IMG/VR virus record: IMGVR_UViG_3300003877_000002
Span: 1-50,291 of that record
Strand: one strand, 5' to 3'
Origin: a virus
Length of the DNA: 50,291 nt
Each line of letters begins with the position of its first letter. The stretch's first letter is position 1. The translations under genes and the position numbers were made by a program. Shown piece after piece: positions 8,731-49,523 of this stretch. The notes below the pieces were generated by a model. The model made no database searches. It worked only from the letters and a program-made list of their open reading frames with translations, and had not been told where the DNA came from.

Positions 8731-9717
8731 TTAAAGTTTAAGTAAACTACCTCCAAGAACTGCATTACCACATGTTATTAGACTGTCTTCTTCTTCCTGA
8801 GAAGGAATGAAAACAAGGGTATCGAAGCCTGCGGATTTACAGCTTTCTTCTACTTTTTTATAGGGTGTATATGAATTGTACCCATTTATTAGCTTTATGT
8901 TGTTTTTACTACAGGCTGAGTTATTATGTATTGGTGTTATTTTAACCATCCATTTATTTTTATCAAAAAGATTTGCTAATATTGCTCCCTTAACTTCATT
9001 ACCTGAAGCATACGCAATATTAAGACAATATTTTCTACCTATTGGTTCTGGTAACTCCTTAACCATATTAGATATATCATGTAAGCGCATACTACTGCCA
9101 CCAAACATTTTATTTCTTTGTTCCTCCTTAGTAGAATTAATACTTAGTTGTAATCCTGCTTGCCCATTAAATTGATTGTTTTTAATATCTACCCATTCAA
9201 AAAGTCTCTTTTTTGTTTTAGAATATTTAGGACACATCGTTGTCAAGACTGGATGTATTGTCTCTATCCTTATACCAGTCTCTTCTTGAAACTGCCTTTT
9301 TCTATTAGCAAGCCATAGAGAAAATAAAAATACATTCTCATTAAAGAGAGGCTCCCCCATTCGTGCAAAATGGATATTTAAGCGATCTGTATATTTAACA
9401 CCAGTCATTGCTAGAGCAGAGTATAGCTGTTTCTTTAAATCATTAATAGAAACATTACCTCTAAATGTAACATTAGGTACGTCACAAAATGTGCATTTCT
9501 GTACACAGCCATATTGTGTCGATAATGTAATTACCCATTTTTCTTGTAATGGCAATATTTCACCACTAGGTACGCCATTTATTTCTGTATTATGGCCAAG
9601 AAAATCAGCTTTTATATTCTTAGATTTTCCATAGTCTCCTATAGATAGTGCTTCTAGTTCTCCTTTACTATAAGTATCTGTAAATAAATAGCCTGTAGGT
9701 ATCTTTATTTTCTTCAT
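8731..9717 (-). CDS. Radical SAM protein of the RlmN/Cfr superfamily
   Basis: A 328-residue radical SAM enzyme. The [4Fe-4S] motif is Cys71-x3-Cys75-x2-Cys78 (CVQKCTFC). Further RlmN-like landmarks are RMGEPLFN at 119-126, LQLSINSTKEEQR, ITPIHNN, and a C-terminal ITCGNAVLGG whose Cys316 matches the cysteine that carries the methyl group in RlmN and Cfr. The second catalytic cysteine of those enzymes, seven residues before the first cluster cysteine, is Thr64 here. It may therefore methylate RNA in a different way or do other chemistry. It lies 8 bases from the helicase gene and makes a TAATG overlap with its upstream neighbour. Confidence 0.82.
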   Translation of the reverse strand: MKKIKIPTGYLFTDTYSKGELEALSIGDYGKSKNIKADFLGHNTEINGVPSGEILPLQEKWVITLSTQYGCVQKCTFCDVPNVTFRGNVSINDLKKQLYSALAMTGVKYTDRLNIHFARMGEPLFNENVFLFSLWLANRKRQFQEETGIRIETIHPVLTTMCPKYSKTKKRLFEWVDIKNNQFNGQAGLQLSINSTKEEQRNKMFGGSSMRLHDISNMVKELPEPIGRKYCLNIAYASGNEVKGAILANLFDKNKWMVKITPIHNNSACSKNNIKLINGYNSYTPYKKVEESCKSAGFDTLVFIPSQEEEDSLITCGNAVLGGSLLKL

Positions 9718-11579: not shown

Positions 11580-12815
11580 TTATCCTTTAATATTAATTAG
11601 GGGACTAATGTAAGCAACTACTTCTACTAAATCTCTCTGCAAGTTCATGACTTCAAAGATATTCTTATAGGCTCCGGGTGACTCATCTAGTGTATCTTCT
11701 ATAACTAGAGCTTGTACATCTGCCATAGTTCTTTGGAAAAAATTAAAATCTAAGTCTCGTTTAGCCTGCTTGCGACTCATTACACGACCAGCTCCATGAG
11801 AACTTGACCAGAGAGATAGGGGATTGCCCTTACCTTTTACGATAAATGAGCCATCTCGCATATTACCGGGAATTACTCCCAGCATACCTTCTTCCGCGTG
11901 TGTGGCACCCTTACGGTGAATCCACAGACCATTACGTTCTACAGCATGATTATGGTTGCGATTGATTAATTCATCGAAGCTAGGTTCCCAGTCTACACAC
12001 CCAAGTACATGACTAATAATATTAATAGTTCGTATCATCATTGTTTTACGATTCTCAAGGGCATACTCTAGACACCAGTTCATATCCTGAATATAGTTCT
12101 TACCTTCCTGTGATTCTACTTTAAAGTTATAGTGTCCTTCTTTAGGACGTGCTCTACCCATTCGCTTATTTACCCAATTACTCTTTAACTTTTCGTAGCG
12201 ATCAGGGTTGTATTTAAGTACATCCTTATGTCCTTCATCAAATTCATCTTCAAGTATACCTCGATCACTAGAGGCTAGTGTCATATAATGTGTAGCAATC
12301 GCGTGTCCTACACCTCGGCTACCTGAGTGTATTACAACCCATACATTAGCTCCGCCGTCTACACCAATCTCAATAAAGTGGTTGCCTCCACCTAGAGAAC
12401 ATAGAGCTCTGTTCCAGTTTTTAAGGGCTGCGATTTCCTTACCACGATTAGTCAATCCTGCTATAGGATATACATTTCTTTTAGGATCATGGGCTTTACT
12501 AATATGGAACCCTACAGGAATACGCGTATAGATCAGATCAAAGATTTCTTTACTATGTTTAATTATTTGCTTAGGATCAATACCCTCTAATTTCAAGGCA
12601 CACATACCGCAACCAATATCATAACCTACCCAAGCAGGTACTACTACACCATCAGTAGCTACTACAGCTCCAATGGGTAGAGAGTAGCCTGTATGAGCAT
12701 CTGGCATAAGAGCACCAGCTACTACAAAGTCTTGTGCCATAGCACTATTGAATTGTTCTAGTGCAGTGTCTTCAAGTATCTCTGCAAAGATATTAACTTG
12801 TTTTTCTGTTTTCAT
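11580..12815 (-). CDS. rtcB: RtcB RNA ligase
   Basis: A 411-residue RtcB, the normal bacterial length. All active-site residues are visible: Asp66 and Cys69 in GYDIGCGMC, His146 in GGGNHF, His163 in HSGSRG, the His pair near 288-290 in NHNHA, and His340 in SSSHGAGR, the residue that accepts GMP. The enzyme joins RNA 3'-phosphate or 2',3'-cyclic phosphate to 5'-OH ends with GTP and Mn. That is the break left by anticodon nucleases and many toxins. No archease is present. It lies 1 base from the cyclotransferase gene at the end of the amidoligase cassette. Confidence 0.96.
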   Translation of the reverse strand: MKTEKQVNIFAEILEDTALEQFNSAMAQDFVVAGALMPDAHTGYSLPIGAVVATDGVVVPAWVGYDIGCGMCALKLEGIDPKQIIKHSKEIFDLIYTRIPVGFHISKAHDPKRNVYPIAGLTNRGKEIAALKNWNRALCSLGGGNHFIEIGVDGGANVWVVIHSGSRGVGHAIATHYMTLASSDRGILEDEFDEGHKDVLKYNPDRYEKLKSNWVNKRMGRARPKEGHYNFKVESQEGKNYIQDMNWCLEYALENRKTMMIRTINIISHVLGCVDWEPSFDELINRNHNHAVERNGLWIHRKGATHAEEGMLGVIPGNMRDGSFIVKGKGNPLSLWSSSHGAGRVMSRKQAKRDLDFNFFQRTMADVQALVIEDTLDESPGAYKNIFEVMNLQRDLVEVVAYISPLINIKG

Positions 12816-12816
12816 G

Positions 12817-13173
12817 TCACCATTCTCCGTCTTCGATTACTTCATATTTATTATATTCTGCTGGATAGTTTAAGTAGTACATCCAAACATCTGCTTCCTT
12901 ATTTCCAAGTTGTATAGTAAATTTCTCTCTGTTGTAGAATGTTGGGAAGCCCTCAAGCATATCCAACCTGTCCAATTTCTCTACTTTATAGACCTCTCCT
13001 TTAATCGTAGAAGTAGGTATATCCTTTAAGACACCGGGGAAGCCACCTAAACTAACCATAGTATATTTATTGCTAGTATAAGCATTACTTATGAACTTAG
13101 AATCTACACCTAAAACAGAGTGATTAGAATAGTCCTTCTTTAAAGATCCATAAACAAACACTAGTTCACACAT
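12817..13173 (-). CDS. Gamma-glutamylcyclotransferase-like (GGCT/AIG2) protein
   Basis: A 118-residue GGCT-fold protein. It has the substrate-binding loop VYGSLKK at 7-13, GGFPGVL in the middle, and the candidate catalytic Glu74 in LDMLEGFP followed by Tyr80 and Arg82. The family releases 5-oxoproline from gamma-glutamyl amines or peptides. Placed with amidoligases and glutamine amidotransferases, it probably removes or edits a gamma-glutamyl link. It overlaps the upstream gene by 8 bases. Confidence 0.9.
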   Translation of the reverse strand: MCELVFVYGSLKKDYSNHSVLGVDSKFISNAYTSNKYTMVSLGGFPGVLKDIPTSTIKGEVYKVEKLDRLDMLEGFPTFYNREKFTIQLGNKEADVWMYYLNYPAEYNKYEVIEDGEW

Positions 13174-13972
13174 TATTCAACACCTTATCTAGTAGACACA
13201 AGTTAGCCTCGTGATAATATTCTTTTGACACATCTTTACTCTTACAAAGAAGATCATTTGTAAAACTTTGAATACCAGTATCATCATGTATTTTACTAGT
13301 AAATACATACTTCTTACAATCTCCTATAGATCTAAATTGCTCAACAAAAGGATTCTCCATAAATTTAGAGAATTGTTTATAGTTTTTACTTATTGTATAT
13401 AAGATACCATAATCAGTTCCAGAATTATGTTGAGCTATGAATTTATTGATACCTCCTTCAAGGGTATCAGTATAATCATATTTCTCTACTCCATAGAAAG
13501 CACAGCGTAATAGTAGAGTAAATAGAGACATTACAGGAGCATTATTTAAGAATATTCTAGGGAAGGTTACAATATAATTATATTTTCCTGTTATACTAGT
13601 GCCTATATCTCCGAAGACTACTTTAGTTTCTTCTATACGGAAATAACTACCTGTCTCTTCACAAAATAAATCAAGTAAATGCAGATCTTTAAGCTCTTCA
13701 TCAAAAGTAAGTAACATTTTAATCTCAGAAGCATTGTACATACTCTGAGAATAGTCCCAAGTAAATCCATATATCTCAAATGGATAAGCACCATTAGTAT
13801 TTTGGTGATATACTACGTCGTTAAAATAGTCACGGCACTTAACTAGTGGCATTACATTCTTGTAGGTATCTGTACCATTAACTTTTTGTAACAGAGCGAA
13901 TCTGACTGCTTTAGTCTGGCTATTCTCAGTAAGACCAAGCCTACCTTGGCTATATAGTTTTACAGTATCCAT
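13166..13972 (-). CDS. Unknown protein of the amidoligase cassette, 268 aa
   Basis: Not recognised. The product begins MDTVKLYSQGRLGLTENSQT and is soluble, with many Tyr, Phe and Asp and scattered cysteines but no clear catalytic motif or membrane segment. It is tied on both sides by start-stop overlaps to the ATP-grasp gene (shared base at 13972) and the cyclotransferase gene, so it must be made with them. Possible roles are substrate carrier, structural partner or a divergent enzyme. Confidence 0.7.
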   Translation of the reverse strand: MDTVKLYSQGRLGLTENSQTKAVRFALLQKVNGTDTYKNVMPLVKCRDYFNDVVYHQNTNGAYPFEIYGFTWDYSQSMYNASEIKMLLTFDEELKDLHLLDLFCEETGSYFRIEETKVVFGDIGTSITGKYNYIVTFPRIFLNNAPVMSLFTLLLRCAFYGVEKYDYTDTLEGGINKFIAQHNSGTDYGILYTISKNYKQFSKFMENPFVEQFRSIGDCKKYVFTSKIHDDTGIQSFTNDLLCKSKDVSKEYYHEANLCLLDKVLNNV

Positions 13973-14817
13973 TATTTATGTTTCTCCATATAAGTTTCAA
14001 TTGCTTTTATGTAGGCATTAAAGGTAGTAGGACTTGACATTCCCGGTGCTGAGTTGACTTCACATACTAGAGCTTCTAGAAGCATTCCATTATCACTGTA
14101 CTTAGCTAAAATATCTACGCCACAATAATCTGCACCTACTGCTTCTGCTGCTTGTATACCGATTTCTTCAATGGTACCTCGACTAGGTAGACCTCCATCA
14201 CAAATTAGATCCTTGTGTGCAAATACCCATCCCTTCTTATGGTTACGTGTAAGCTCATCTACTTCTTTAATACCTCTTTCAGCACGTTTTTTAGATCCCA
14301 TTCGCTTCTTCTGTATTAGATCAATGGCTACTCCATCGAATACATGTACTCGAAATTCATGTGTCTTATCGAAGAATTTTGTATATAGAGGAGCTGAAAC
14401 AAGATCACCTTTATTTTCTACTAACTCAATACCTTTACCTTGTTTTCCATTAAGGATGTGACGTATAATTACTTTATCTCCATTATCGATCCATATTCTT
14501 GCATCAGCACGTACAGTGGACATAGCTAAACAAGGCACTTCTTTTGTTGATAGTAGCTTAAGAGTAGTTAGCTTATTGACGCAATTACCTACGGCACTAG
14601 GAGAGTTGATCATCTTAACTCCGCGTACTGCTGCATCTTCCCACCAGATAGGTAGCTGGCTACGGCCATAGTTAAATACAAATGAGTTATCCTTTACTTT
14701 AATGTTAGGACGATAACCACATGTTACTTGGTTTGCATTAAAATGGTTAGCAAGCTTACGACCTACTCCCGGTACATCCTTACGTACACGCAAGATATTT
14801 AGTTTTTCATTGAACAT
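13972..14817 (-). CDS. ATP-grasp ligase, RimK-like
   Basis: A 281-residue ATP-grasp protein. It shows the glycine-rich loop NGKQGKGI at 123-130, EFRVHVFDG at 154-162, GVDI at 233-236 and the metal-binding EVNSAPG at 253-259. RimK-type enzymes form amide bonds between a carboxylate, activated as acylphosphate, and an amine, for instance adding glutamates to a peptide. Here it lies 15 bases after the class II amidotransferase, which could supply ammonia, and overlaps the next unknown gene. Confidence 0.92.
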   Translation of the reverse strand: MFNEKLNILRVRKDVPGVGRKLANHFNANQVTCGYRPNIKVKDNSFVFNYGRSQLPIWWEDAAVRGVKMINSPSAVGNCVNKLTTLKLLSTKEVPCLAMSTVRADARIWIDNGDKVIIRHILNGKQGKGIELVENKGDLVSAPLYTKFFDKTHEFRVHVFDGVAIDLIQKKRMGSKKRAERGIKEVDELTRNHKKGWVFAHKDLICDGGLPSRGTIEEIGIQAAEAVGADYCGVDILAKYSDNGMLLEALVCEVNSAPGMSSPTTFNAYIKAIETYMEKHK

Positions 14818-14832
14818 TATTTTTACTTCTCC

Positions 14833-16152
14833 TTAGTCAGAATAAAGTTTTTCAGCACAGTCATAGCAGATTGGGTCATCTTGTAGACTCCAATCAAGAT
14901 CTTCTGCATCATCAACAGAGAGATTACAGCTACAAAAAGAACAACCTCTCTTAATTAGTTTCTCATACTCCTCTTCAGTTATATTTTTACCATCTGGCCC
15001 AAGTACCATTTTAATCACGTTATTGTCTTCTTCCTCTGGAGCTGGTAGTTCCTTTACTACGTGTAGTTTAATAGAATCTCCTTTGAGTACCAGTTCATAT
15101 CCACCAGTCAGCTTATAGGCTCGTTCAGCTACACCAGTAAGGTTAGTAGTTTCTGTAAGTATACCGTCTTTCTCTAGATCAGACAGCTTAACATTATACG
15201 CTACAACTAAATCTACCACACCACTAGAGGTAATTGTTTCACCTTTAATAGTACCAAAATATCCATCAGCTTGTTCAGTATACTTAGTTACTTTAAGTTT
15301 AGAGAACATAATTACTTCATTTTTTATATAGCCTATATCTAGTAACTGTTTTTCTGCTGGTGTACTATAAGTATTATGTTTAGATTTACCATTACCTTTA
15401 CCAGTACCGTAACCACCATACCAATCGGAATCAGCCCACTTATTAGTAGGTGCTAATATATCAAAAGATTTCTTACTCTCTTCAATTTTAGTAGCTCCTA
15501 ACTTAAATGTAAAGTGTCTACCGATAGGTAATTTTTCAACCGCTTCGAGGTTATATGTTTTTGGCATAATACCACTAATCATCCAAGGCTCAGAGGCGTA
15601 GAATAAGGCTTTCCCATCAGTGGAGTAAGCAAAGTGCATAGGCCTTTCATCGTTTCTAGCCATATGTAGTGTGTGGTCTGTAGAGTCATACCATACTAAA
15701 GCGTATGCCCCATCTAACTTTGGTAAAACGTCCTCTGCTCCAGCAGTTGAGAAGGCTTTACAAATAGCTTCGCTATCTGTAGGGAACTCATTTTTTAAGC
15801 CATTAAAAGAGATTAGTGTGCCATTATGTACTAGTGTTATATTACCATGTGAAAAAGGATGTGCATTTACAGCAGTCTTTTTACCCTTAGTAGCCCAGCG
15901 ATTATGACCAATTACATAATCATAAGTATCTATATTATATAGTAACTTATCTACTTTAGCCATGTTAATAAAATCATATCCTGCCATAGCTTTCTTATAT
16001 AGAAGAATATCTTTAGAGGCTTTTACTAACGCTAGACCTGTGCTGTCCTCACCTCTGATTGTATCTACATATAGAGCCTTCTCTAACCAAGCTCTGCGAG
16101 CTGTCCAGTTGACAGATTTTTCCATTGAGATCATTCCTACAATTCCACAAAT
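14833..16152 (-). CDS. Class II glutamine amidotransferase, AUU start
   Basis: From ATG the frame starts only at 16132-16134, which would remove the catalytic residue. Upstream in frame lie the codons ATT TGT GGA ATT GTA GGA (16152-16135), giving MCGIVG, the obligatory class II N-terminus with nucleophile Cys2. ATT at 16150-16152 is preceded by AGGAG with an 8-base gap; no ATG, GTG or TTG exists between it and the upstream in-frame stop. I therefore call an AUU start (439 residues). Other motifs: RGEDSTG at 33-39, GHNRWATKG at 81-89, AHPFSHGN and HNGT. The C-terminal domain carries a four-Cys zinc site (CSFCSC and CYDC). It releases ammonia from glutamine. Confidence 0.9.
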   Translation of the reverse strand: MCGIVGMISMEKSVNWTARRAWLEKALYVDTIRGEDSTGLALVKASKDILLYKKAMAGYDFINMAKVDKLLYNIDTYDYVIGHNRWATKGKKTAVNAHPFSHGNITLVHNGTLISFNGLKNEFPTDSEAICKAFSTAGAEDVLPKLDGAYALVWYDSTDHTLHMARNDERPMHFAYSTDGKALFYASEPWMISGIMPKTYNLEAVEKLPIGRHFTFKLGATKIEESKKSFDILAPTNKWADSDWYGGYGTGKGNGKSKHNTYSTPAEKQLLDIGYIKNEVIMFSKLKVTKYTEQADGYFGTIKGETITSSGVVDLVVAYNVKLSDLEKDGILTETTNLTGVAERAYKLTGGYELVLKGDSIKLHVVKELPAPEEEDNNVIKMVLGPDGKNITEEEYEKLIKRGCSFCSCNLSVDDAEDLDWSLQDDPICYDCAEKLYSD

Positions 16153-16224
16153 TTTCTCATCTCCTAGACTAATAAATTAGTCTGTTAGTTTACCCATTTC
16201 CAATGGGTGTGGGTTACAGTACTA
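16153..16224 (-). promoter_or_regulatory. Structured leader of the class II amidotransferase gene
   Basis: A 72-base spacer with two inverted repeats. At 16166-16183 there is a perfect 8+2+8 palindrome (AGACTAAT, ATTAGTCT) directly abutting the AGGAG of the AUU-start gene. At 16192-16208 there is a 7+3+7 stem (ACCCATT, AATGGGT). Either could be an operator, a translational switch hiding the ribosome site, or an attenuator separating the two halves of the amidoligase cassette. Confidence 0.6.
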
Positions 16225-17145
16225 CTACTTTTTCTCATATTCAGATAAAATTTTAAATACATCCCATTCCGCCATTTGTATCTCTGTTGGGTGTGTTAGT
16301 TCTCTAACTAACAATAGAGCCTCCTTCATATTACTCCTCAGTTTATAATTAAAATCAATTACTGTATTATCAGGTAAGACTCTTTTTACAAAAGACTCTA
16401 AACCAAATTTGTGTATATCTTTTAGTATATCTTTAGGATCTTCATATGCTATAGCTGTTTCATATATACTTATAAGTATATTTATCCATGCCTTAAGCTT
16501 TACTGTGCTGTAACACCCTTGTAGCATTCTATATTCTATAGAGCCAAACTTACGCAATGCTGCAAAGTTTATACCCGCATATCTATAACCGTCACTAAAT
16601 TTCTGCATCATTTCATAAGATACATTGAAGGATAAATCTTTACTTTGTATATTAGTGCGTATATTATGTATTACTTCTTGTTTATCTGTTATTGGCAGAG
16701 AGAAAGGAGATAGAGATCTATACTTTCTACAGTAAGCAAATAATACAGGCTCCATAAAAAGAGATAAGAGTATAAAATTAGTAAGTTTATTTGTATCCAA
16801 AGATCTAACATCGACATGTACGTGTGTACTTGTCCTATAGCTGATTATTGGAGTTAGATCATTACTTATAATATAGTTCTCTAACTCAGTAAGTGCTTTG
16901 ATAGTATCAAAAGTACCTAATGGTAAAGAAAACCTAGCTTCTACTGCATCATCTCCGCGTAAAGAGTCGTCATAAGTGAATGCCCAATAGATACTAGTAT
17001 CACTAAGTTCTTTGATAGGACAATTTTCTAATTCAATTTCTATACCTAATAGAACATCGGAAGGAACTAATTCAGTAGAAGTCTTAAAGCTTCTAGGATC
17101 TGCTTGGTGGCTTGTAAGGTTTACAACTGGTACATTTTTATACAT
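16225..17145 (-). CDS. Amidoligase, glutamine-synthetase fold (Amidoligase_2 type)
   Basis: A 306-residue protein matching the amidoligase pattern: the first metal strand GIEIELE at 34-40, the paired-His strand STHVHVDVR near 104-112, and YAGINFAALRKFGSIEYRM in the second half with the Arg/Glu pair expected in the ATP site. These enzymes join a carboxylate to an amine using ATP. It overlaps the upstream unknown gene by 8 bases and is the second amidoligase of the cassette, with the other at 17860-18699. The substrate is unknown. Confidence 0.88.
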   Translation of the reverse strand: MYKNVPVVNLTSHQADPRSFKTSTELVPSDVLLGIEIELENCPIKELSDTSIYWAFTYDDSLRGDDAVEARFSLPLGTFDTIKALTELENYIISNDLTPIISYRTSTHVHVDVRSLDTNKLTNFILLSLFMEPVLFAYCRKYRSLSPFSLPITDKQEVIHNIRTNIQSKDLSFNVSYEMMQKFSDGYRYAGINFAALRKFGSIEYRMLQGCYSTVKLKAWINILISIYETAIAYEDPKDILKDIHKFGLESFVKRVLPDNTVIDFNYKLRSNMKEALLLVRELTHPTEIQMAEWDVFKILSEYEKK

Positions 17146-17815
17146 CTATAATCTCCACAGTTATTTGTCCATGTAATAGACAGATTAGATCTCTTTTTAG
17201 AAAAGCAAGAGACTTAGGCACTAGAAGTTTATCAACCAGTACCCCTATTAGATTATTTTTATAATAGAGTACTAAAGAGTTTTTTATCTTGCCTAAAGCT
17301 AAGTGTCTAGTTATTACTGCACTGTTAATTTTACCACTATTTATAGCAGAAATGGCTTGTTTAATAGAGTAAGTTTTATTACGTAATAGCCCATGTAAAA
17401 AATTATTATGATCAGTAGTGTACTTAACTTCCTCCTTCTCAAAAGGGTTTACTGCACTTGGGAGCTTAGTTAAGATAGTCTGCACATTATGCTTTAGTGT
17501 AAAAGATCTCTTCCATTGCTTCATATGATCAGCTTGCATATAATAAGCATCTTTTCTTAGCTGTACATAGCCTGAGTTTTTATATACAGGATAGAATTTA
17601 AGTTTAGTAAAATTTAGTACTCTGTCATATTTTTTACCATTTTTATATAAAATACCTTCCAAGAGAATATCATTACCTATTACAGGATTCTCTCTAAAAC
17701 TATAGCGTACTTCTTGTATAAAAAATAAATGCTCTCCTTTTTTATCTAGCTCTTTAATCGCTACATATGTATTTTCAAATTTTACTTGAATTTCTTTAAG
17801 TATATCTAGTTTCAT
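17138..17815 (-). CDS. Unknown protein between the two amidoligases, 225 aa
   Basis: Not recognised. A basic, soluble protein beginning MKLDILKEIQVKFENTYVA, with a Lys/Tyr-rich middle and a C-terminal part (LLVPKSLAFLKRDLICLLHG) that looks helical. No metal or nucleotide motif is clear. It is translationally coupled to a 14-codon mini-ORF upstream (TAATG) and to the amidoligase downstream, so it is an integral cassette member, perhaps a substrate-presenting or structural partner. Confidence 0.7.
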   Translation of the reverse strand: MKLDILKEIQVKFENTYVAIKELDKKGEHLFFIQEVRYSFRENPVIGNDILLEGILYKNGKKYDRVLNFTKLKFYPVYKNSGYVQLRKDAYYMQADHMKQWKRSFTLKHNVQTILTKLPSAVNPFEKEEVKYTTDHNNFLHGLLRNKTYSIKQAISAINSGKINSAVITRHLALGKIKNSLVLYYKNNLIGVLVDKLLVPKSLAFLKRDLICLLHGQITVEIIDV

Positions 17816-17859
17816 TAGAAGATAGCCTCTTCTGGTACGGTTTGTGGTGCAGTAACCAT
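17815..17859 (-). CDS. Candidate 14-aa mini-gene MVTAPQTVPEEAIF
   Basis: The gap between the phiEco32-type amidoligase gene and the next gene is exactly filled by a 14-codon frame. Its ATG begins on the base right after the amidoligase TAA, and its own TAA overlaps the next ATG (TAATG). No Shine-Dalgarno precedes it, so translation would depend on re-initiation. It could be a peptide substrate (two adjacent Glu, one Gln) or merely a coupling element holding the next ribosome site. Confidence 0.35.
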   Translation of the reverse strand: MVTAPQTVPEEAIF

Positions 17860-18699
17860 TTATACTTGATCAATCATAAGGTCATCAAAATAGGAACTTT
17901 TAGGCATTCTAATCTCATTCTCCTTAATAATACTTTCAGCCATATCCTTATCGTGAGTGTCTATACACTTTCTAATCTCTTCAAAGAACTTCTTTTTATG
18001 GCTAGATACAGTAACTCTATAATCATATGCTCTATTAGCTGCTTGAAATATCCATTTCATTAGTTGTTTATTCTCAAGCCAAAAATTAGATGGTGTGCGA
18101 TACTCTACTCCATAAGGTTTAGGTCTAAAGCAACCAGCCTTGCCATAGAGACTACGTCTTTCTTTATCAGGATCTAATAGAATGGAGGGTACTCCAATAA
18201 ATAAATCACACATTAGTATAGTGTTAATCTGTTCTTTCATGTTGATAGTACTTTTAAAGCCAATGTGGATGTGACCAGCAGCAGTACGTAAGTTTTTAGC
18301 CATACCACTATTTATCTGTGTTGTCGTGTCTAAGTGCCATACGTTATAGTCTTCGTCACAGCCGAAAGCCTGTGCTTCTGGATGCAATAATAAATCTTCA
18401 CTCTCCCCTTCATAAAAATGAGAAGGCTTAATGAGATACTTCTTACCTTTAGGCTCAAGATATTGTTTATCTATAGCTTGTAGAGTCCATAGTATATTGT
18501 GTACAAAGGTAGTTGGATGTCCGGCGGGACATATGTTCAACTCACCTAAAACATTATCTCGATGCACTGATCCTTCTTCACATACTTCTACCTGCTTATC
18601 CTTAGTGCCGGGGATAATACCAATTGCAGTCTCAATTTCTTTACTCGCTATATCTTGTATGAAAAATTCTGGGTCTGCTCCAATTAAAGTACTGCTCAT
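17860..18699 (-). CDS. PhiEco32-type amidoligase (COOH-NH2 ligase family)
   Basis: A 279-residue protein of the phiEco32 COOH-NH2 ligase type, a glutamine-synthetase-like fold. It begins MSSTLIGADPEFF, the family's hallmark metal strand GADPE. Next come GSVHRDNVLGELN, the paired-His strand AAGHIHIGF, and CFRPKPYGVEYRTPSNFW with the catalytic Arg/Glu region. The frame opens at a TTG at 18705, but ATG at 18699 follows AAGGAG by 8 bases. The family makes amide links between a carboxylate and an amino group. Start and stop abut mini-ORFs on each side. Confidence 0.92.
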   Translation of the reverse strand: MSSTLIGADPEFFIQDIASKEIETAIGIIPGTKDKQVEVCEEGSVHRDNVLGELNICPAGHPTTFVHNILWTLQAIDKQYLEPKGKKYLIKPSHFYEGESEDLLLHPEAQAFGCDEDYNVWHLDTTTQINSGMAKNLRTAAGHIHIGFKSTINMKEQINTILMCDLFIGVPSILLDPDKERRSLYGKAGCFRPKPYGVEYRTPSNFWLENKQLMKWIFQAANRAYDYRVTVSSHKKKFFEEIRKCIDTHDKDMAESIIKENEIRMPKSSYFDDLMIDQV

Positions 18700-18743
18700 T
18701 AGCAAATCTCCTTAATGTCAAGATTGTGGTATAGATATTTCAT
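18699..18743 (-). CDS. Candidate 14-aa mini-gene MKYLYHNLDIKEIC
   Basis: A 14-codon frame between the class I amidotransferase and the amidoligase. Its ATG overlaps the previous stop (ATGA), AAAGGA lies 9 bases upstream, and its TAA overlaps the amidoligase ATG (TAATG). The good ribosome site favours real translation. The frame also contains the amidoligase's own AAGGAG. It has the same 45-base length as the mini-ORF at 17815-17859. Leader or coupling peptide, or a modified peptide ending in Cys, are the options. Confidence 0.45.
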   Translation of the reverse strand: MKYLYHNLDIKEIC

Positions 18744-19366
18744 AGTAGTTTGTCCTTTAAAGTTTTAATGAAAAATTTGAATCCTTCAGAGCTTTCAGAC
18801 ATCCATTCAGGATGATATTGAAAACCTAAGCAGCGAGTAGTAGGCCAGAAGACTACCTCTGGTTCTCTCCCTGCTAATTTACTGTGAAAGTTTTTAACCT
18901 TTACTTTACCTCCTGTCTCGAATACTGTAGACTCTTTAGCCCACGCTAGGAGCTCATAGTCTCCCTTCGGATAGATCATTTGATGATGATCACCAGTAAC
19001 AGTAAGCATTTTATCGTCAGGTGTGTGGATTATATGATCACAAGAGTTGTGATTGTTTACATGTTGAATCAATACACCACGGTTCATTACATTTAAGAAT
19101 TGAGCACCACGACAAATACCTACCATAGGTAGTTCAAGTATCTTACAGTGGTTATATACTTCAAGCTCAAAGAAATCCCTACTCTTGTCTGAGTAGGTTT
19201 TGTCAATTTTATTATCGTCATAGAAGTAAGGATCTACATCAGATCCCCCAGTAAACACAACTAGATCACAGTCAGCTAATTTACTGACGTTACTAATCGG
19301 TTTACCAAGGGAAGTAAATGCATCCTTATACTTATTATTATCACCTTCAAGTACTAATATTTTCAT
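18740..19366 (-). CDS. Class I glutamine amidotransferase-like peptidase C26
   Basis: The frame is open to 19477, but ATG at 19366 (MKILVLEGD) follows AGGAG closely and makes the expected compact start, giving 208 residues. Motifs are FTGGSDVDP at 38-46, nucleophile Cys85 in GICRGAQ, the C26-type DHHQM at 126-130, and His185/Glu187 in QYHPEW. This is the gamma-glutamyl hydrolase branch (PuuD-like) rather than a synthetase-coupled domain, so it probably cleaves gamma-glutamyl bonds in the product or intermediate of the cassette. It is the first cassette gene transcribed. Confidence 0.9.
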   Translation of the reverse strand: MKILVLEGDNNKYKDAFTSLGKPISNVSKLADCDLVVFTGGSDVDPYFYDDNKIDKTYSDKSRDFFELEVYNHCKILELPMVGICRGAQFLNVMNRGVLIQHVNNHNSCDHIIHTPDDKMLTVTGDHHQMIYPKGDYELLAWAKESTVFETGGKVKVKNFHSKLAGREPEVVFWPTTRCLGFQYHPEWMSESSEGFKFFIKTLKDKLL

Positions 19367-19578
19367 CTTTCTCCTAGTCCGTATCTTTCTATATCTCTTC
19401 TGCCTACTTCTCCATTCCAACAAGCTAAACAACAGGGTAATAGAGGAGCTTTTATATCTTCTTGTGATACGTACCAAAACCCAATATCATCAGCAAAATC
19501 ATTAACGTTCCCACAGTGTCCACAAATTATTCCGTCTGGATCATCTATTTTTGCTAATTCTAAATCTTTATCAAACAT
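19363..19578 (-). CDS. Zinc-ribbon protein, 71 aa
   Basis: The longest frame reaches 19734, but ATG at 19578 overlaps the previous stop and has GGAGAAGG just upstream, so the first 52 residues of that frame are discarded. The product begins MFDKDLELAKIDD and holds two cysteine pairs (CGHC, CCLAC) around WYVSQEDI, a typical zinc ribbon. It overlaps the C26 peptidase gene by 4 bases. Function unknown. Confidence 0.7.
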   Translation of the reverse strand: MFDKDLELAKIDDPDGIICGHCGNVNDFADDIGFWYVSQEDIKAPLLPCCLACWNGEVGRRDIERYGLGER

Positions 19579-19828
19579 AGTAACCTTCTCCATATAAGTC
19601 TTTGAAAATACGATTGATTTCAGTTTGAGGTAGTTCCTTCTTAGCAAAGATCTTACCAGAAGTGCGGCATGAGTAGTGAATTGTATGCTCCTTGGTCGAT
19701 TTGTTGATAGTAATCCTTGCCCTTCTGTCCACATATTTCTTTACGTGACGAAGGATAACAAGAACAGGCCATTGAAACTTAAATGGGATATGTATCCGGG
19801 AAGCTGCAAGCTTATTTTTGTGTGACAT
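19571..19828 (-). CDS. Hypothetical basic protein, 85 aa
   Basis: Unrecognised. It begins MSHKNKLAASRIHIPFKF and is strongly basic (HVKKYVDRRARITINKSTKEH), with a helical C-terminus ending YGEGYYV. It may bind nucleic acid. It is the start of the gene run leading into the amidoligase cassette. One copy of the 10-bp motif GTTGATAGTA (19703-19712) lies inside it. Confidence 0.6.
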   Translation of the reverse strand: MSHKNKLAASRIHIPFKFQWPVLVILRHVKKYVDRRARITINKSTKEHTIHYSCRTSGKIFAKKELPQTEINRIFKDLYGEGYYV

Positions 19829-25283: not shown

Positions 25284-25359
25284 CGCTCTTTAGTGTAATT
25301 GATAAGCATAGGGGACTTTGACTCCCCTAGTCTAGGTTTGAGTCCTAGAAGAGCTGCCA
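25284..25359 (+). tRNA. tRNA-Gln (anticodon TTG)
   Basis: 76 bases with encoded CCA. Acceptor CGCTCTT/AAGAGCT (weak first pair, as usual for tRNA-Gln), G before CCA, anticodon stem GGGGA/TCCCC with loop CTTTGAC, and T stem CTAGG/CCTAG. The D arm is GTGT/GCAT. It reads CAA. The T loop has T in place of the usual C at position 56. Confidence 0.85.
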
Positions 25360-29722: not shown

Positions 29723-30034
29723 ATGTCACAAAACTTAGAAGAACTTTTTGACTCTAATTCAATTAGAGCCAGAGCAGAAGCAATCTTAATAGAGATTACA
29801 CCAGAAGAAAGACAGAATTGGTTACAGCATCCAATTACCAAATCACTCTTACTTACACTAAAAGGTGATTATTTAGATCACCACTCAGCGTGGGAAGGTG
29901 GGGCTTTTACCTCTGAAGGTTCAGATGGTACAGCTCAGCAAAATGCCAAGGCTCTTGGCTCCTTAGAAGCAATACGACTATTAGCAAACTATATAGAGGA
30001 TATAAACTCTTATGATCAAAGTGAAGGGATATAG
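29723..30034 (+). CDS. Unknown head-region protein, 103 aa
   Basis: Unrecognised. Helical and acidic, beginning MSQNLEELFDSNSIRARAEA. It follows the portal with no gap and its end overlaps the co-chaperonin gene by 23 bases. Small proteins at this spot are often head-assembly helpers or minor head proteins. Confidence 0.65.
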   Translation: MSQNLEELFDSNSIRARAEAILIEITPEERQNWLQHPITKSLLLTLKGDYLDHHSAWEGGAFTSEGSDGTAQQNAKALGSLEAIRLLANYIEDINSYDQSEGI

Positions 30035-30392
30035 AATCCTAGTTAAACCTGATGAAATAGAAAAAGTAACGGAGTCAGGAATTATAATTTCTCAGAATGA
30101 AGTTATAGAAGAATCAGGTATCCAGCAAGGATACTTAATAGCGGTAGGAGAACAGGCTTGGAAAGCTTTTCGACAACTGGATGAGAACGGTAAAGAAGTA
30201 GAAGGTAAATCTTGGGCAAAACCCGGTGATTATGTTTTATGGGCACGACATGCTGGAAGGAAGGTATTTGATCCACATGAGCCTGATGAAAGTAATTACT
30301 ATATGGTAATGAATGATGAAGACATCATAGCAATCATTACTGAAGGTACTAACCCTGAGTTTAGTCCTAATACAATAACGGAGACATTATAA
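30012..30392 (+). CDS. GroES-like co-chaperonin
   Basis: A 126-residue co-chaperonin-10 fold protein: GYRILVKPDEIEKVTESGII at the start, GYLIAVGEQA in the middle, KPGDYVLWARHAG and the C-terminal strand DIIAII. The Gly-Ile mobile-loop region (TESGIIISQN) fits contact with host GroEL. No GroEL is encoded. Placed between portal and scaffold, it probably retunes host GroEL for folding the capsid protein, as gp31 does in T4. It ends in TAATG overlap with the scaffold gene. Confidence 0.88.
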   Translation: MIKVKGYRILVKPDEIEKVTESGIIISQNEVIEESGIQQGYLIAVGEQAWKAFRQLDENGKEVEGKSWAKPGDYVLWARHAGRKVFDPHEPDESNYYMVMNDEDIIAIITEGTNPEFSPNTITETL

Positions 30393-34306: not shown

Positions 34307-34768
34307 ATGGTAATGCAAACACAAACTCTCTTAGAGAGTACTACAGAAACTATTACAGATCGTAATGGTAATACTAAACCTGCTACTGAGAAACAAAAAA
34401 TCACAGACGGCGGGGCGCATGTCGCAGTAAAGTCTCAGTCATTCCCGTCAGACACATATGTACAGATTGACGGGACAGCGCAAACATCGGTAACGGCAGA
34501 CATATACCTTTCTGGCAATGTGTCTACGTTTGATTACCATGTAATAGAAGCCATTACTGCTGCTGCAAAAGTGGAAATTACTCGTGATGGCAGCACATGG
34601 ATACAGATTGCGCTAGAAATTGAGGATGATGTTACTGCTGGGCAGCCGAAATCATTAACTATTGCTGCTGGTGAGTCTGGAATTTATCGGGGCAAGTGCC
34701 TTAATCTGCGCGTACGCCCTAATGCGGCGACTAGCACTAACGCTCGTATCGCACACGGTAATATCTGA
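34307..34768 (+). CDS. Putative tail/head-fibre adapter, 153 aa
   Basis: ATG at 34307 with AGG upstream; a GTG at 34277 is possible but less likely. Beginning MVMQTQTLLESTTETITDRN, the chain is beta-rich (YVQIDGTAQTSVTADIYLSG, AAKVEITRDGSTWIQIALEI), resembling a small virion surface domain. GC content rises along it compared with upstream genes. Its stop overlaps the next start (TGATG), so it is coupled to the hydrolase gene. Confidence 0.55.
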   Translation: MVMQTQTLLESTTETITDRNGNTKPATEKQKITDGGAHVAVKSQSFPSDTYVQIDGTAQTSVTADIYLSGNVSTFDYHVIEAITAAAKVEITRDGSTWIQIALEIEDDVTAGQPKSLTIAAGESGIYRGKCLNLRVRPNAATSTNARIAHGNI

Positions 34769-36066
34769 TGACTGTTAATACTTCACTCCAACCTATCGTT
34801 GTAAATACGCCATTTGCTAAAATTCCTGCTGATGACCCGCGCGTAGTTGTGCGAGCTGACTTGCAAAGTTTGTCAGGGTTAGACGGCGGTGTTTTGACCG
34901 ATGCAAACTCAGTCGCAACATTTAACGGCAATGGTATATCTAACGGGACTGAGGCGTATGTCAGATGGACGCCTACTGCTGCCGAAGTTGCCGCACTAGC
35001 TAAATCATCATTAATCCATCTTGAGATTGAGTCTGACTTCTTAACATCTGATTTTACTGGCGCAGACAGATTATTAAATCTTGCAAATGGTAATCGAAAA
35101 ATTTACATGACAGCAAACCAGAGTTTTGTTGTTCAGTGGGATACAACTACTACTTCTTTTTTAACTAAAGGCATCAACACCGATAGACCGTGGAAGTCAC
35201 ATACAGATTTAGATTTTGTCATTCAGGGCAATAACGTCAAAACATATATTGATGGGTTGCTCATGTTTGATGAAACAAACGATGCTGCTCAAGACTTTAC
35301 AACTATTACATTATTTGCAGCCCAAAATGGCACGCAGAAGTGGGGAGAAGAGTCTAACGGTGCATGCAAACAGAGGGTAAAAAACCTTTACATTGTTTCT
35401 GGCGTAATCCCTGAGGTTTATCACAAGAATCTATCCAGTCTACATATATACGGTGATTCAATTATACGCCAAGGAAACTTAGTTGCTGGGTGGCCTGATG
35501 CAAACGGTACTGCTGGTTCTGGTTGGGCAGATGAAGGCATGACTGCTGCTATACAAAAAGCGTGTAGAAAGGTTGGGCTTAGAGTTGTCGTGCAAAATAA
35601 AGGAATTGGTGGTGACACGCTTGCGGATGTGCAAGCAAGAATAGATGTTACCCCGCATCTTGCTGGTGCTCCTGTAGTTATTAAGCTAGGTGTAAATAAT
35701 TTGCGCCCACTCGGAGTGTTAGACCCAATTCAATCCATATTTAAAACTGACTACCAAACACTGATTGACGATATAACCGCGCTAGGTGCAGACCACATCT
35801 TTGTATGCACTATCGCCTCAACAGCAGAAGACTCGACAGCGCCGGAAAGCCTAACGCGCGGCGCAGTTGATGAGGTCAATCAAGTTGTAACAGATATGGA
35901 AAATGAAAATGCAAATGTTACCAAGATTGATGTGGGCGGCTTTTTGGGTGGAGCAAACTTCGACGCAGCTAATTACGCCGCCGCTAATTTGCATTTCAAC
36001 AGAACTGGCTCACGCAAGGTTGGTGAATTTATCGGCGCTAATGTGTTGAGTTATTATAATATATGA
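34768..36066 (+). CDS. Virion surface protein with lectin-like and SGNH-hydrolase domains
   Basis: A 432-residue protein. The N-terminal half (about 60-210) looks like a concanavalin-type beta-sandwich (IHLEIESDF, FVIQGNNVKTYIDG, ITLFAAQNG). The C-terminal half is an SGNH hydrolase: Ser231 in IYGDSI, Gly282 in GIGGDT, Asn310-311 in GVNN, and His409 in ANLHFNRTG. The Asp usually three residues before the His is Ala406 here, so the triad may be incomplete. Such domains de-acetylate surface polysaccharide during adsorption. GC content is much higher than in flanking genes. Confidence 0.8.
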   Translation: MTVNTSLQPIVVNTPFAKIPADDPRVVVRADLQSLSGLDGGVLTDANSVATFNGNGISNGTEAYVRWTPTAAEVAALAKSSLIHLEIESDFLTSDFTGADRLLNLANGNRKIYMTANQSFVVQWDTTTTSFLTKGINTDRPWKSHTDLDFVIQGNNVKTYIDGLLMFDETNDAAQDFTTITLFAAQNGTQKWGEESNGACKQRVKNLYIVSGVIPEVYHKNLSSLHIYGDSIIRQGNLVAGWPDANGTAGSGWADEGMTAAIQKACRKVGLRVVVQNKGIGGDTLADVQARIDVTPHLAGAPVVIKLGVNNLRPLGVLDPIQSIFKTDYQTLIDDITALGADHIFVCTIASTAEDSTAPESLTRGAVDEVNQVVTDMENENANVTKIDVGGFLGGANFDAANYAAANLHFNRTGSRKVGEFIGANVLSYYNI

Positions 36067-47140: not shown

Positions 47141-47477
47141 AAGTAAGTACCTTTAAAAATAAATTATATTTAATAGCTAAATCGATCATGTGTTTTGTTC
47201 CTTTAGATTTACCATCCCAAAAAGCTAACAGTCCCTCTGCCTGCTTAGCCATTTGCTCATTTCTTATATACCCTGCTGGTTTGCCATATTTATCCCAATT
47301 AGCAGGAAATTCTTTAATTGGTACATCACATTCATTAGCCCATTCTTCTCCAAGATTATCAGCTCCCTTAGCTTTCCTGCTAATAACCTCAGTAATAGGG
47401 GTGGGCCAGCTCTCAGCAACATTAACTAATGTATTATAATCATTAAAGTCTCTACCTCCAGCAATAATTACTTTCAT
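47133..47477 (-). CDS. DUF2493-type nucleotide-binding protein, 114 aa
   Basis: Starts MKVIIAGGRDFNDYNTLVNV; the GGRDF loop and Rossmann-like strand are typical of the DUF2493 / YspA-type family of unknown function. Its ATG overlaps the reductase stop (TAATG), so they are co-translated; a nucleotide- or ADP-ribose-binding role near nucleotide metabolism fits. Confidence 0.8.
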   Translation of the reverse strand: MKVIIAGGRDFNDYNTLVNVAESWPTPITEVISRKAKGADNLGEEWANECDVPIKEFPANWDKYGKPAGYIRNEQMAKQAEGLLAFWDGKSKGTKHMIDLAIKYNLFLKVLTYE

Positions 47478-49366
47478 TATACTTCACACGAGTTAGCTGT
47501 ACAAGCTAATTCCTTCATTGCAGTTGTCATATCTTCTTCCTCAGTACTAAGGTTCCAGTCTATCTCTTCTGGCATCTTAGCTAATAGTTCATTGTATTCT
47601 TCTTCAGTTATTTCCTGATAGGGTGCCTGCTTATAAGAATGGTTTGAGTGTGGTAGGAAGCTAACTCCACTACACATATCAAAGTTCTCATATACCCACG
47701 CACCTACTTCCATCCATTCCTCTTCCTTAACATAGACAGTGATACTTGGCTTATGTTCACAATAATACTTAGCATACACCTTCCATAACTCCAACTGTTC
47801 TATAGCATTCCTATCATCTCGATACACACTATTCTCTGGACTCTTAATAGGAAAAGAGAATATATAGGTACTATTAGGTTTAGTTACATCATCTTCAACT
47901 GGTACACCACTCTCAAGTAAAACTTGGCTTACTGGATCCTTTTTGTCAGCACGTACAGTCCTAACGTAATAGGGGCTGTACCGAGGATGAATCCCGCTAG
48001 CACTGTTAACAAGCTGAGAAACAGTCCCACTAGGCTTAACACAAGTAATAGCAGTAGCAGGATTAATACCGAGTTTATCACTCCATTCTTTATTCGTTTC
48101 AATTGCCACCTCTTTTAATTGTCGTAACCAATCATCACAATCTAGTTCAGACAAGAAGGGATGATCCATTATACCTGTTAAACTCACGCCAAGTAGAGCT
48201 TCCTCCTCAGTATTCTTCTTCCAAGCAGAACTTAAATACCTAAAATCTGTAAGAGTTGCTTGGAGGGTTCCGAGTATTGTTGCAAGTCTGACCTTGTTCT
48301 TAAGGGACTCCAAGGTGTCGTCGGATCGCACAACGACTTCAGAAAGATTGCAGAATTGCTTTGGGCGTAAGATAATTTCAGAGCACGGATTTGTTCCGAA
48401 GTCTGCTGGTTCCCTACGGCCATTTCGTAACGCCGTTTTAATAGCTGCTTCGCGGTTAAAGATCCCCCTCTCTCCGCTTTTACTTTCATATAAAGCACTC
48501 CACTCTTTCATCCAGATACCCATATCAGGCTTTTCAGTATAGCAGACAGAGTTATTAGCTAGGGCTCTCTGCCCATTCTCTTCCCACCAATTACCACTCT
48601 TGGCTACCCGCATTCTCTCATCAGTAAGATTAGAAAGAGAAATGAGAGCAGAGCGACGGACACCTCCTACTACCACGATGTCAGCAACCTTGCACATAAG
48701 ATCATGGCACTCAATGGACGTAAGTTTTCTTCCTCGTGCATTAGTAAATACCTCCACAGTAAAAGTAAATAGGTCTAGTAGTGGCTGAGGGCCACTAGCT
48801 CTACCACCAAAGGTCTTCAGAGGAGCTCCAGCAGGACGTATCTTAGAGACATCCCACTGTGGTACTTGTCCTGAGTAGAGCAGAGAGATGAGCTCACGAT
48901 AGGCCCTAGCCCACCCAATTTTACTATCCGCTACCTTAATTACTGTATCTGTAGGTTCCATTTCTTCAGCGATCTCAGGTAGTTTATTAATGTACTGACG
49001 TTCCACTGAGAAGCCTACACCTGTACCACAGCAGAGGATATAGAGAGTCTCATCAAAAGCTCGTGGTGAATCTACAGCTAGATAAGAGCAATTGAAGCCA
49101 GCTACATTATCACGGTCAAGTGCCTTACCTGCTGTCATCAGAGATCTCATACTTGGCATTACTTCTAGATTTATTATGTGTGACTCAAGATCACCTCTAA
49201 TATTCCCAATCCCAATAGTATTATCAAAATAATCAATATATCTGCGTACTGTTTCATTCCAACTCTCTCTCCTCTTCTCTTCTGGCAACCATCGTGCGTA
49301 GCGACTCTTGTGGATATATTCTGAATAGATGCTGACGGCATCGGAACTCTGTTCCTTATCACTCAT
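47477..49366 (-). CDS. nrdJ: Class II (B12-dependent) ribonucleotide reductase
   Basis: About 629 residues, the monomeric adenosylcobalamin-dependent triphosphate reductase type. Landmarks are VAGFNCSY with the first active cysteine, CCGTGVGFSVERQ, NPCSEIILRPKQFCNLSEV with the radical cysteine and Asn/Glu, KPSGTVSQLV, and a C-terminal redox pair CTANSC. ATG at 49366 overlaps the upstream stop; a TTG three codons earlier is an alternative. It makes deoxynucleotides without oxygen or iron and depends on host vitamin B12. Confidence 0.93.
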   Translation of the reverse strand: MSDKEQSSDAVSIYSEYIHKSRYARWLPEEKRRESWNETVRRYIDYFDNTIGIGNIRGDLESHIINLEVMPSMRSLMTAGKALDRDNVAGFNCSYLAVDSPRAFDETLYILCCGTGVGFSVERQYINKLPEIAEEMEPTDTVIKVADSKIGWARAYRELISLLYSGQVPQWDVSKIRPAGAPLKTFGGRASGPQPLLDLFTFTVEVFTNARGRKLTSIECHDLMCKVADIVVVGGVRRSALISLSNLTDERMRVAKSGNWWEENGQRALANNSVCYTEKPDMGIWMKEWSALYESKSGERGIFNREAAIKTALRNGRREPADFGTNPCSEIILRPKQFCNLSEVVVRSDDTLESLKNKVRLATILGTLQATLTDFRYLSSAWKKNTEEEALLGVSLTGIMDHPFLSELDCDDWLRQLKEVAIETNKEWSDKLGINPATAITCVKPSGTVSQLVNSASGIHPRYSPYYVRTVRADKKDPVSQVLLESGVPVEDDVTKPNSTYIFSFPIKSPENSVYRDDRNAIEQLELWKVYAKYYCEHKPSITVYVKEEEWMEVGAWVYENFDMCSGVSFLPHSNHSYKQAPYQEITEEEYNELLAKMPEEIDWNLSTEEEDMTTAMKELACTANSCEV

Positions 49367-49523
49367 TAAAATCAATCTCCTCTACTTCGTCTTGATCGAT
49401 ATGATCATAGGCATTAAATTCTTCAAGCTCGCAGAACTCCATGCCACTACAAGCATTAGTACCTATTCCCATATCTCGGTCTGGATGGTGGCACCACCCA
49501 CAGTCATTATATTTACAGTACAT
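49359..49523 (-). CDS. Cys/His microprotein, 54 aa
   Basis: A short frame from ATG 49523 to TGA overlapping the reductase ATG (ATGAGTGA). The first half has MYCKYNDCGWCHHPDRDMG and GMEFC, several Cys and His able to bind a metal; the second half is very acidic (DQDEVEEIDF). It is translationally coupled to the reductase and may be a small thiol partner. Confidence 0.6.
   Translation of the reverse strand: MYCKYNDCGWCHHPDRDMGIGTNACSGMEFCELEEFNAYDHIDQDEVEEIDFNE

Follow-up and report, generated by a model that had tools for sequence, protein, structure and literature searches.

A phiEco32/LUZ24/RIO-1-type amidoligase cassette in a virus genome, with genes for both GGCT and C26 enzymes and a probable AUU start of its amidotransferase

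Introduction

Phages HP1, RIO-1, phiEco32, 7-11, PA11, tf, LUZ24 and PaP3 were described as carrying a "peptidoglycan modification cassette" (PMC5498523), a proposal that has been repeated (PMC11945000, PMC10580990), and in HP1 expression of the genes predicted to act on peptidoglycan begins at once upon infection (PMC7082346). The pathway is a multi-enzyme one that was predicted in 2009, is kept by very different phages and, in the published text available, is still without a known product. The virus record IMGVR_UViG_3300003877_000002 (50,291 bases, analysed over its whole length and here called the window) was found to carry at positions 12817-19366 a cassette in which genes for a COOH-NH2 ligase, an Amidoligase_2 protein, a class II glutamine amidotransferase (GAT) and an ATP-grasp ligase occur together with genes for both a gamma-glutamyl cyclotransferase (GGCT) and a C26-type hydrolase. 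It is almost certainly the known phiEco32/LUZ24/RIO-1-type phage amidoligase module, which is already described and widespread and is not new in kind. What is new here is the alternation of GGCT and C26 across phages, the probable AUU start of the GAT gene and a barrel model of a conserved 225 amino acid (aa) protein.

Results

Cassette content and distribution

The cassette is filled by eight genes on the minus strand, adjacent genes overlapping or being separated by no more than about 75 bases. A preliminary description made from the sequence had counted nine frames; the enzyme families that it named were borne out by Pfam and PHROG matches. Read from one end, the genes encode a C26-type gamma-glutamyl hydrolase, also class I glutamine amidotransferase-like (18740-19366; Pfam Peptidase_C26, E 1.8e-20; phrog_7218, E 3.7e-38; GICRG and YHPE motifs), a phiEco32-type COOH-NH2 ligase, the first of two glutamine-synthetase-like (GS-like) amidoligases (17860-18699; PF14395, E 1.1e-9; phrog_3815, E 1.9e-71), the 225-aa core protein of unknown function (17138-17815; phrog_11055, E 1.8e-8), Amidoligase_2, the second GS-like amidoligase (16225-17145; PF12224, 22.6 bits against a cut-off of 22; phrog_7469, E 5.1e-45), the class II GAT with a C-terminal CxxC...CxxC zinc-ribbon-like tail (14833-16152; GATase_6, E 8.6e-19; phrog_4736, E 5.9e-74), a RimK-like ATP-grasp ligase (13972-14817; Pfam RimK, E 1.7e-7; phrog_2599, E 1.6e-50), a 268-aa protein of unknown function with a CRD[FY] motif (13166-13972) and a GGCT of the GGACT/AIG2 type (12817-13173; Pfam GGACT, E 4.6e-22; phrog_2520, E 1.8e-23; VYGSLK and GEVY motifs).

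All four enzymes were found in every one of 16 diverse phage records; 15 of the records had the 225-aa family, and 15 had GGCT or C26. The core was also found in most of 80 IMG/VR loci, in the same or a similar gene order, and chance association is excluded because the same genes recur in like order in the phage records and the 80 viral contigs. The phage records, these loci and the window were grouped into 68 clusters at 70% identity of the COOH-NH2 ligase, 53 of them complete, that is, with one locus holding all four enzymes and a margin on both sides; the 225-aa family was present in 40 of the 53. With the COOH-NH2 ligase as query, tblastn matched 317 phage records. No phage record was matched by the cassette in blastn, relatives being detectable at the protein level only; a scan with Amidoligase_2 alone gave no confirmed relative, and its variability made the GAT alignment unsuitable as a query.

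The gene order in the window matches that of LUZ24 and UFV-P2 (PMC3890496) save for inserted genes, and the cassette sits beside replication genes. In other phages a candidate seventh gene (about 300 aa) lies upstream of the COOH-NH2 ligase; it falls into several different PHROGs and matched no Pfam family above cut-off. That such operons had been predicted in phiEco32-like phages was rightly stated in the preliminary description. Its view that a full set is notable for a genome of some 50 kb found no support, as the same core is found in LUZ24-like phages (45 kb), Klyazma (50 kb), HP1 (45 kb), Vibrio IME271 (50 kb) and others, and a peptidoglycan modification cassette is already named in papers (PMC5498523, PMC11945000).

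Two GS-like amidoligases

The Amidoligase_2 match lies at the Pfam threshold, and neither amidoligase gave a match when its profile was searched against PDB sequences; the fold of Amidoligase_2 was therefore approached by modelling. An AlphaFold2 (AF2) model built with 42 relatives had a mean predicted local distance difference test score (pLDDT) of 88.6. Its best PDB matches were YbdK (Foldseek E 2e-5) and glutamine synthetases, with Z 12.2 and an rmsd of about 4 over some 213 residues, and all 50 VIA matches listed were YbdK-like, glutamine synthetases or close relatives (Z 10.8-12.2). Across 43 sequences S61, L62, E69, H108, H110, E132, R143, Y189, E204 and R206 are invariant, while E36, E38 and E40 are almost so. 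The model thus gives Amidoligase_2 a glutamine-synthetase fold, in agreement with the earlier assignment.

The COOH-NH2 ligase is classed as a GS-like amidoligase by its family match and its conserved residues, with D9, E11, E53, H143, H145, R181, E199 and R201 invariant in 16 sequences; for this protein the earlier assignment stands at the level of sequence. Comparison of the two amidoligase alignments with hhalign disclosed no detectable similarity, a result that says nothing on a common fold.

Alternation of GGCT and C26

Among the 53 complete clusters, 22 carried GGCT only, 21 C26 only, eight both and two neither (Fisher p 3.6e-6, uncorrected for kinship), and on the GAT tree this trait changes at least six times. 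The pattern is consistent with GGCT and C26 substituting for each other functionally. Since the two are largely alternatives across phages, it suggests that a removable gamma-glutamyl group is involved.

Start codon of the GAT gene

Class II (N-terminal nucleophile, Ntn) GATs require an N-terminal catalytic Cys, which is exposed after removal of Met. In the window the start region reads ATT-TGT-GGA-ATT-GTA-GGA, with Cys-Gly-Ile-Val-Gly encoded directly after the ATT at 16150-16152 (minus strand), and the ATG chosen by the open reading frame (ORF) caller (16134) falls downstream of the catalytic Cys. There is no in-frame ATG, GTG or TTG upstream before a stop. The gene most likely starts at this ATT (AUU), because no other in-frame start before the stop leaves the Cys N-terminal. 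A Shine-Dalgarno sequence, AGGAG, is located 8 nt upstream (16161-16165) and is abutted by a 7 bp hairpin (16166-16183; RNAfold -5.8 kcal/mol, z -5.0 against shuffles). A -1 frameshift from an out-of-frame ATG was rejected, as the Cys would be buried behind extra residues; in Bas92 and SU10, moreover, just a single codon of the open GAT frame precedes the ATT.

The same pattern was found with ATT in Bas92, SU10, ECBP2, SU7 and the locus L021, and with ATC in Klyazma. In ECBP2 and SU7 (loci L209 and L213, near 9097) the start region AAA-ATT-TGT-GGT comes right after a stop and the annotated ATG is 3' of the catalytic Cys. Recurrent AUU starts thus mean that automated annotation can strip the catalytic Cys from the enzyme, as in these two phages.

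A census of start codons was made by an IMG/VR pattern scan with a fixed Shine-Dalgarno sequence, taking non-redundant GATs with cassette neighbours. The 53 cassette GATs comprised 36 ATG, 11 ATT, one ATC, two GTG and three TTG starts, so that AUU/AUC accounts for 12 of 53 against five for GUG/UUG; the non-GAT background of the same scan gave seven ATG, seven ATT and six ATC. With L019 left out as a motif miscall, a canonical start was missing upstream of the first motif in 7/63 GATs, 0/65 COOH-NH2 ligases and 0/56 Amidoligase_2 genes. Parsimony required ten changes on the tree for ten AUU/AUC rows, with L054 doubtful and many branches weak, and the GATs of RhI311 and T4S1 have alternative upstream starts. 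Hairpins at the Shine-Dalgarno sequence were more stable with AUU/AUC (mean -3.2 kcal/mol) than with ATG (-1.2 kcal/mol; p 0.01, compared post hoc and uncorrected for phylogeny), and roughly half the GATs with AUU/AUC starts are without one. That AUU/AUC starts evolved repeatedly and independently at this glutaminase gene, often with a hairpin, as a selected translational control timing or restraining ammonia release, for example an IF3-sensitive one, is a reading to which we give a little less than an even chance. The probable start at AUU, a codon rarely used for initiation, recurs among numerous related phages and makes regulation of the pathway testable.

Other cassette proteins

In the ATP-grasp ligase K82, D235, E253 and N255 (Mg/ATP residues) are invariant in 15 sequences, as is R156. 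The AF2 model of the 225-aa protein (pLDDT 86; predicted template modelling score, pTM, 0.79) predicts an N-terminal helix and, by DSSP, a small barrel of five strands similar to Sm, Hfq and SH3-like domains, together with a second domain. Its best match to Sm folds is weak, Z 6.4 over 60 residues being in the noise range for such searches. A match of this family to PlyP35 (E 0.2) was taken as chance.

The 268-aa protein, which had no match in the phage database or PHROG, belongs to a sparse cassette-associated family of seven members in six clusters, all located 4.2-5.2 kb past the frame start of the COOH-NH2 ligase. A CRISPR_Cas9_WED Pfam match (E 0.043, below cut-off) was taken as noise. 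One cassette locus (L063, 8787-10794) has two divergent neighbouring copies of this family.

Neighbouring genes and closest relatives

The window genome is probably complete because direct terminal repeats of about 97 bp, with identical ends, are present at both ends. On its GGCT side the cassette adjoins a minus-strand gene for an RtcB RNA ligase (11580-12815; Pfam RtcB, E 1.2e-86), and a 123-aa ORF (19363-19734) overlaps the C26 end. RtcB was near the cassette in just one other sampled locus, and Cronobacter phage 009 has it near its cassette; the gene is probably outside the cassette core. Beyond RtcB are a TOPRIM primase, a DnaB-like helicase and a family A polymerase. The replication genes had been called T7-like, which fits the polymerase; primase and helicase are on separate genes, which does not fit. 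Promoter and terminator patterns in the window showed no excess over shuffled sequence.

Elsewhere in the window, positions 8731-9717 encode a radical SAM protein that has a CxxxCxxC motif and is RlmN-like by eye, its Pfam match being under the curated cut-off, and a late-region protein (34768-36066) has a GDSL/SGNH hydrolase domain. A tRNA-Gln gene (anticodon TTG; 25284-25359) lies in the rightward half, 5' of the terminase gene. Vibrio phage 172P1, a carrier of the module, also has a tRNA-Gln, possibly by coincidence.

The cultured Alcaligenes phage vB_Af_QDWS535 shares the late module with the window (terminase 43%, portal 46% and capsid 53% identity) and has the same cassette, including both C26 and GGCT. 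It differs in that its GAT starts at ATG, its GGCT lies apart, RtcB was not found and the ribonucleotide reductase genes are different. The related spring-water phage MW202796 has the late module and a class II ribonucleotide reductase in common with the window, and when checked for the cassette families none was detected. As QDWS535 has the cassette and MW202796 appears to lack it, the cassette seems to have been gained or lost within this group. The B12-dependent (class II) ribonucleotide reductase of the window (47477-49375) is 62% identical to that of MW202796, and a phage-encoded GroES-like co-chaperonin (30012-30392) is common to QDWS535 and MW202796.

Discussion

The gene families, the modelled GS fold of Amidoligase_2, the conserved active-site residues, the co-occurrence of the genes, the GGCT/C26 alternation as a pattern and the sole available GAT start are observations; the order of reactions, the gamma-glutamyl intermediate, the product and the purpose set out below are inferred. 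The pathway would act early and, since the cassette products have no export signals by eye (no dedicated tool was used), in the cytoplasm. The class II GAT, initiated at AUU and with Cys1 freed by Met removal, would free the ammonia of glutamine; carboxylate-amine bonds would then be made one after another by the GS-like pair and the RimK-like ATP-grasp enzyme, and C26 and GGCT would strip a gamma-glutamyl group added transiently along the way. Butirosin synthesis uses such a gamma-glutamyl protecting logic (BtrJ/BtrG), to which the proposed removal can be likened. The 225-aa Sm/SH3-like protein may be a scaffold or substrate-binding partner. Amide ligation with a removable gamma-glutamyl group is probable, and the identity of the module taken together with this chemistry, the target being left aside, is the best explanation, held with rather better than even confidence. 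A peptidoglycan precursor is the likeliest single target, though less likely than not to be the true one; its modification would alter stem peptides and thereby affect superinfection or lysis. Exclusion or defence evasion, as put forward in the preliminary description, would be a conjectural role.

Several points weigh against this account. No demonstrated product or substrate was found for any phage in the literature consulted, as the preliminary description had also held, nothing in the sequence is specific to peptidoglycan and no Mur-like domain was identified. Because the COOH-NH2 ligase was the query by which the loci were retrieved, its presence in them is by construction. The exclusivity of GGCT and C26 is not significant after phylogenetic correction, with three independent pairs on supported branches, and both genes occur in 8/53 clusters and neither in 2/53.

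Two other targets are serious rivals to peptidoglycan. The first is a protein of the host or the phage, such as one of the ribosome or of transcription, to which the RimK-like ligase and the amidoligases might attach glutamate or another residue; C26 or GGCT would trim what had been added, and the Sm-like protein would dock the protein being modified. Related phage ATP-grasp families were predicted to modify host proteins (PMC4431377), the ATP-grasp enzyme is nearest to RimK-type ligases and the conserved 225-aa partner is modelled with an Sm/SH3-like barrel; yet the likeness to RimK is at family level only, the barrel match is weak (Z 6.4) and the cassette shows no evident target. Protein modification is possible but less likely than not. 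The attach-and-remove logic of gamma-glutamyl groups is typical of small-molecule pathways, which would suit a small metabolite (a modified amino acid, a peptide or a polyamine conjugate) acting against the defences of the host or adjusting its physiology. Linked ligases, too, often work successively on small substrates (PMC4431377), but the core is without an export or signalling gene and no metabolite is known; we regard this as slightly less likely than protein modification.

Auxiliary nitrogen metabolism, in which ammonia or glutamine nitrogen is pushed into amino acids, was claimed for phage ZRK32, which has the same module and for which growth effects were reported (PMC10945688). That claim is based on addition of the whole phage and not on genes, three ligases and two hydrolases exceed the needs of assimilation, and the module is present in phages of many hosts, all of which makes this reading improbable. 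Amide-linked base modifications exist in other phages, and the cassette might serve such hypermodification, linking amino acids or amides to the bases of the phage's own DNA; a partial scan of the window proteins gave no initiator of the hydroxymethylpyrimidine synthase or transglycosylase type, and we consider this highly improbable. The question of the product is testable, given the conserved 225-aa partner, the cultured carriers (Bas92, SU10, LUZ24 and QDWS535) and a relative with no detected cassette.

Among known systems, E. coli YbdK and the glutamine synthetases are like Amidoligase_2 in the modelled fold and in residues of the E-x-E, H-x-H and E-x-R type, whereas identity is just about 9-14%. 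E. coli infC, the precedent for an AUU start (PMC5472188), is repressed by IF3 and shares with the phage GAT an isoleucine codon as start; the GAT is another gene in another organism, and the likeness is in the start codon only. The closest counterpart is the phiEco32/LUZ24/RIO-1-type module, with which the window shares the core, mostly in the order COOH-NH2 ligase, phrog_11055, Amidoligase_2, class II GAT, ATP-grasp ligase and GGCT, and a position near replication genes. The window differs in adding the 268-aa CRD[FY] protein, the adjacent RtcB and the AUU-started GAT, and in having C26 plus GGCT, as do 8 of the 53 complete clusters.

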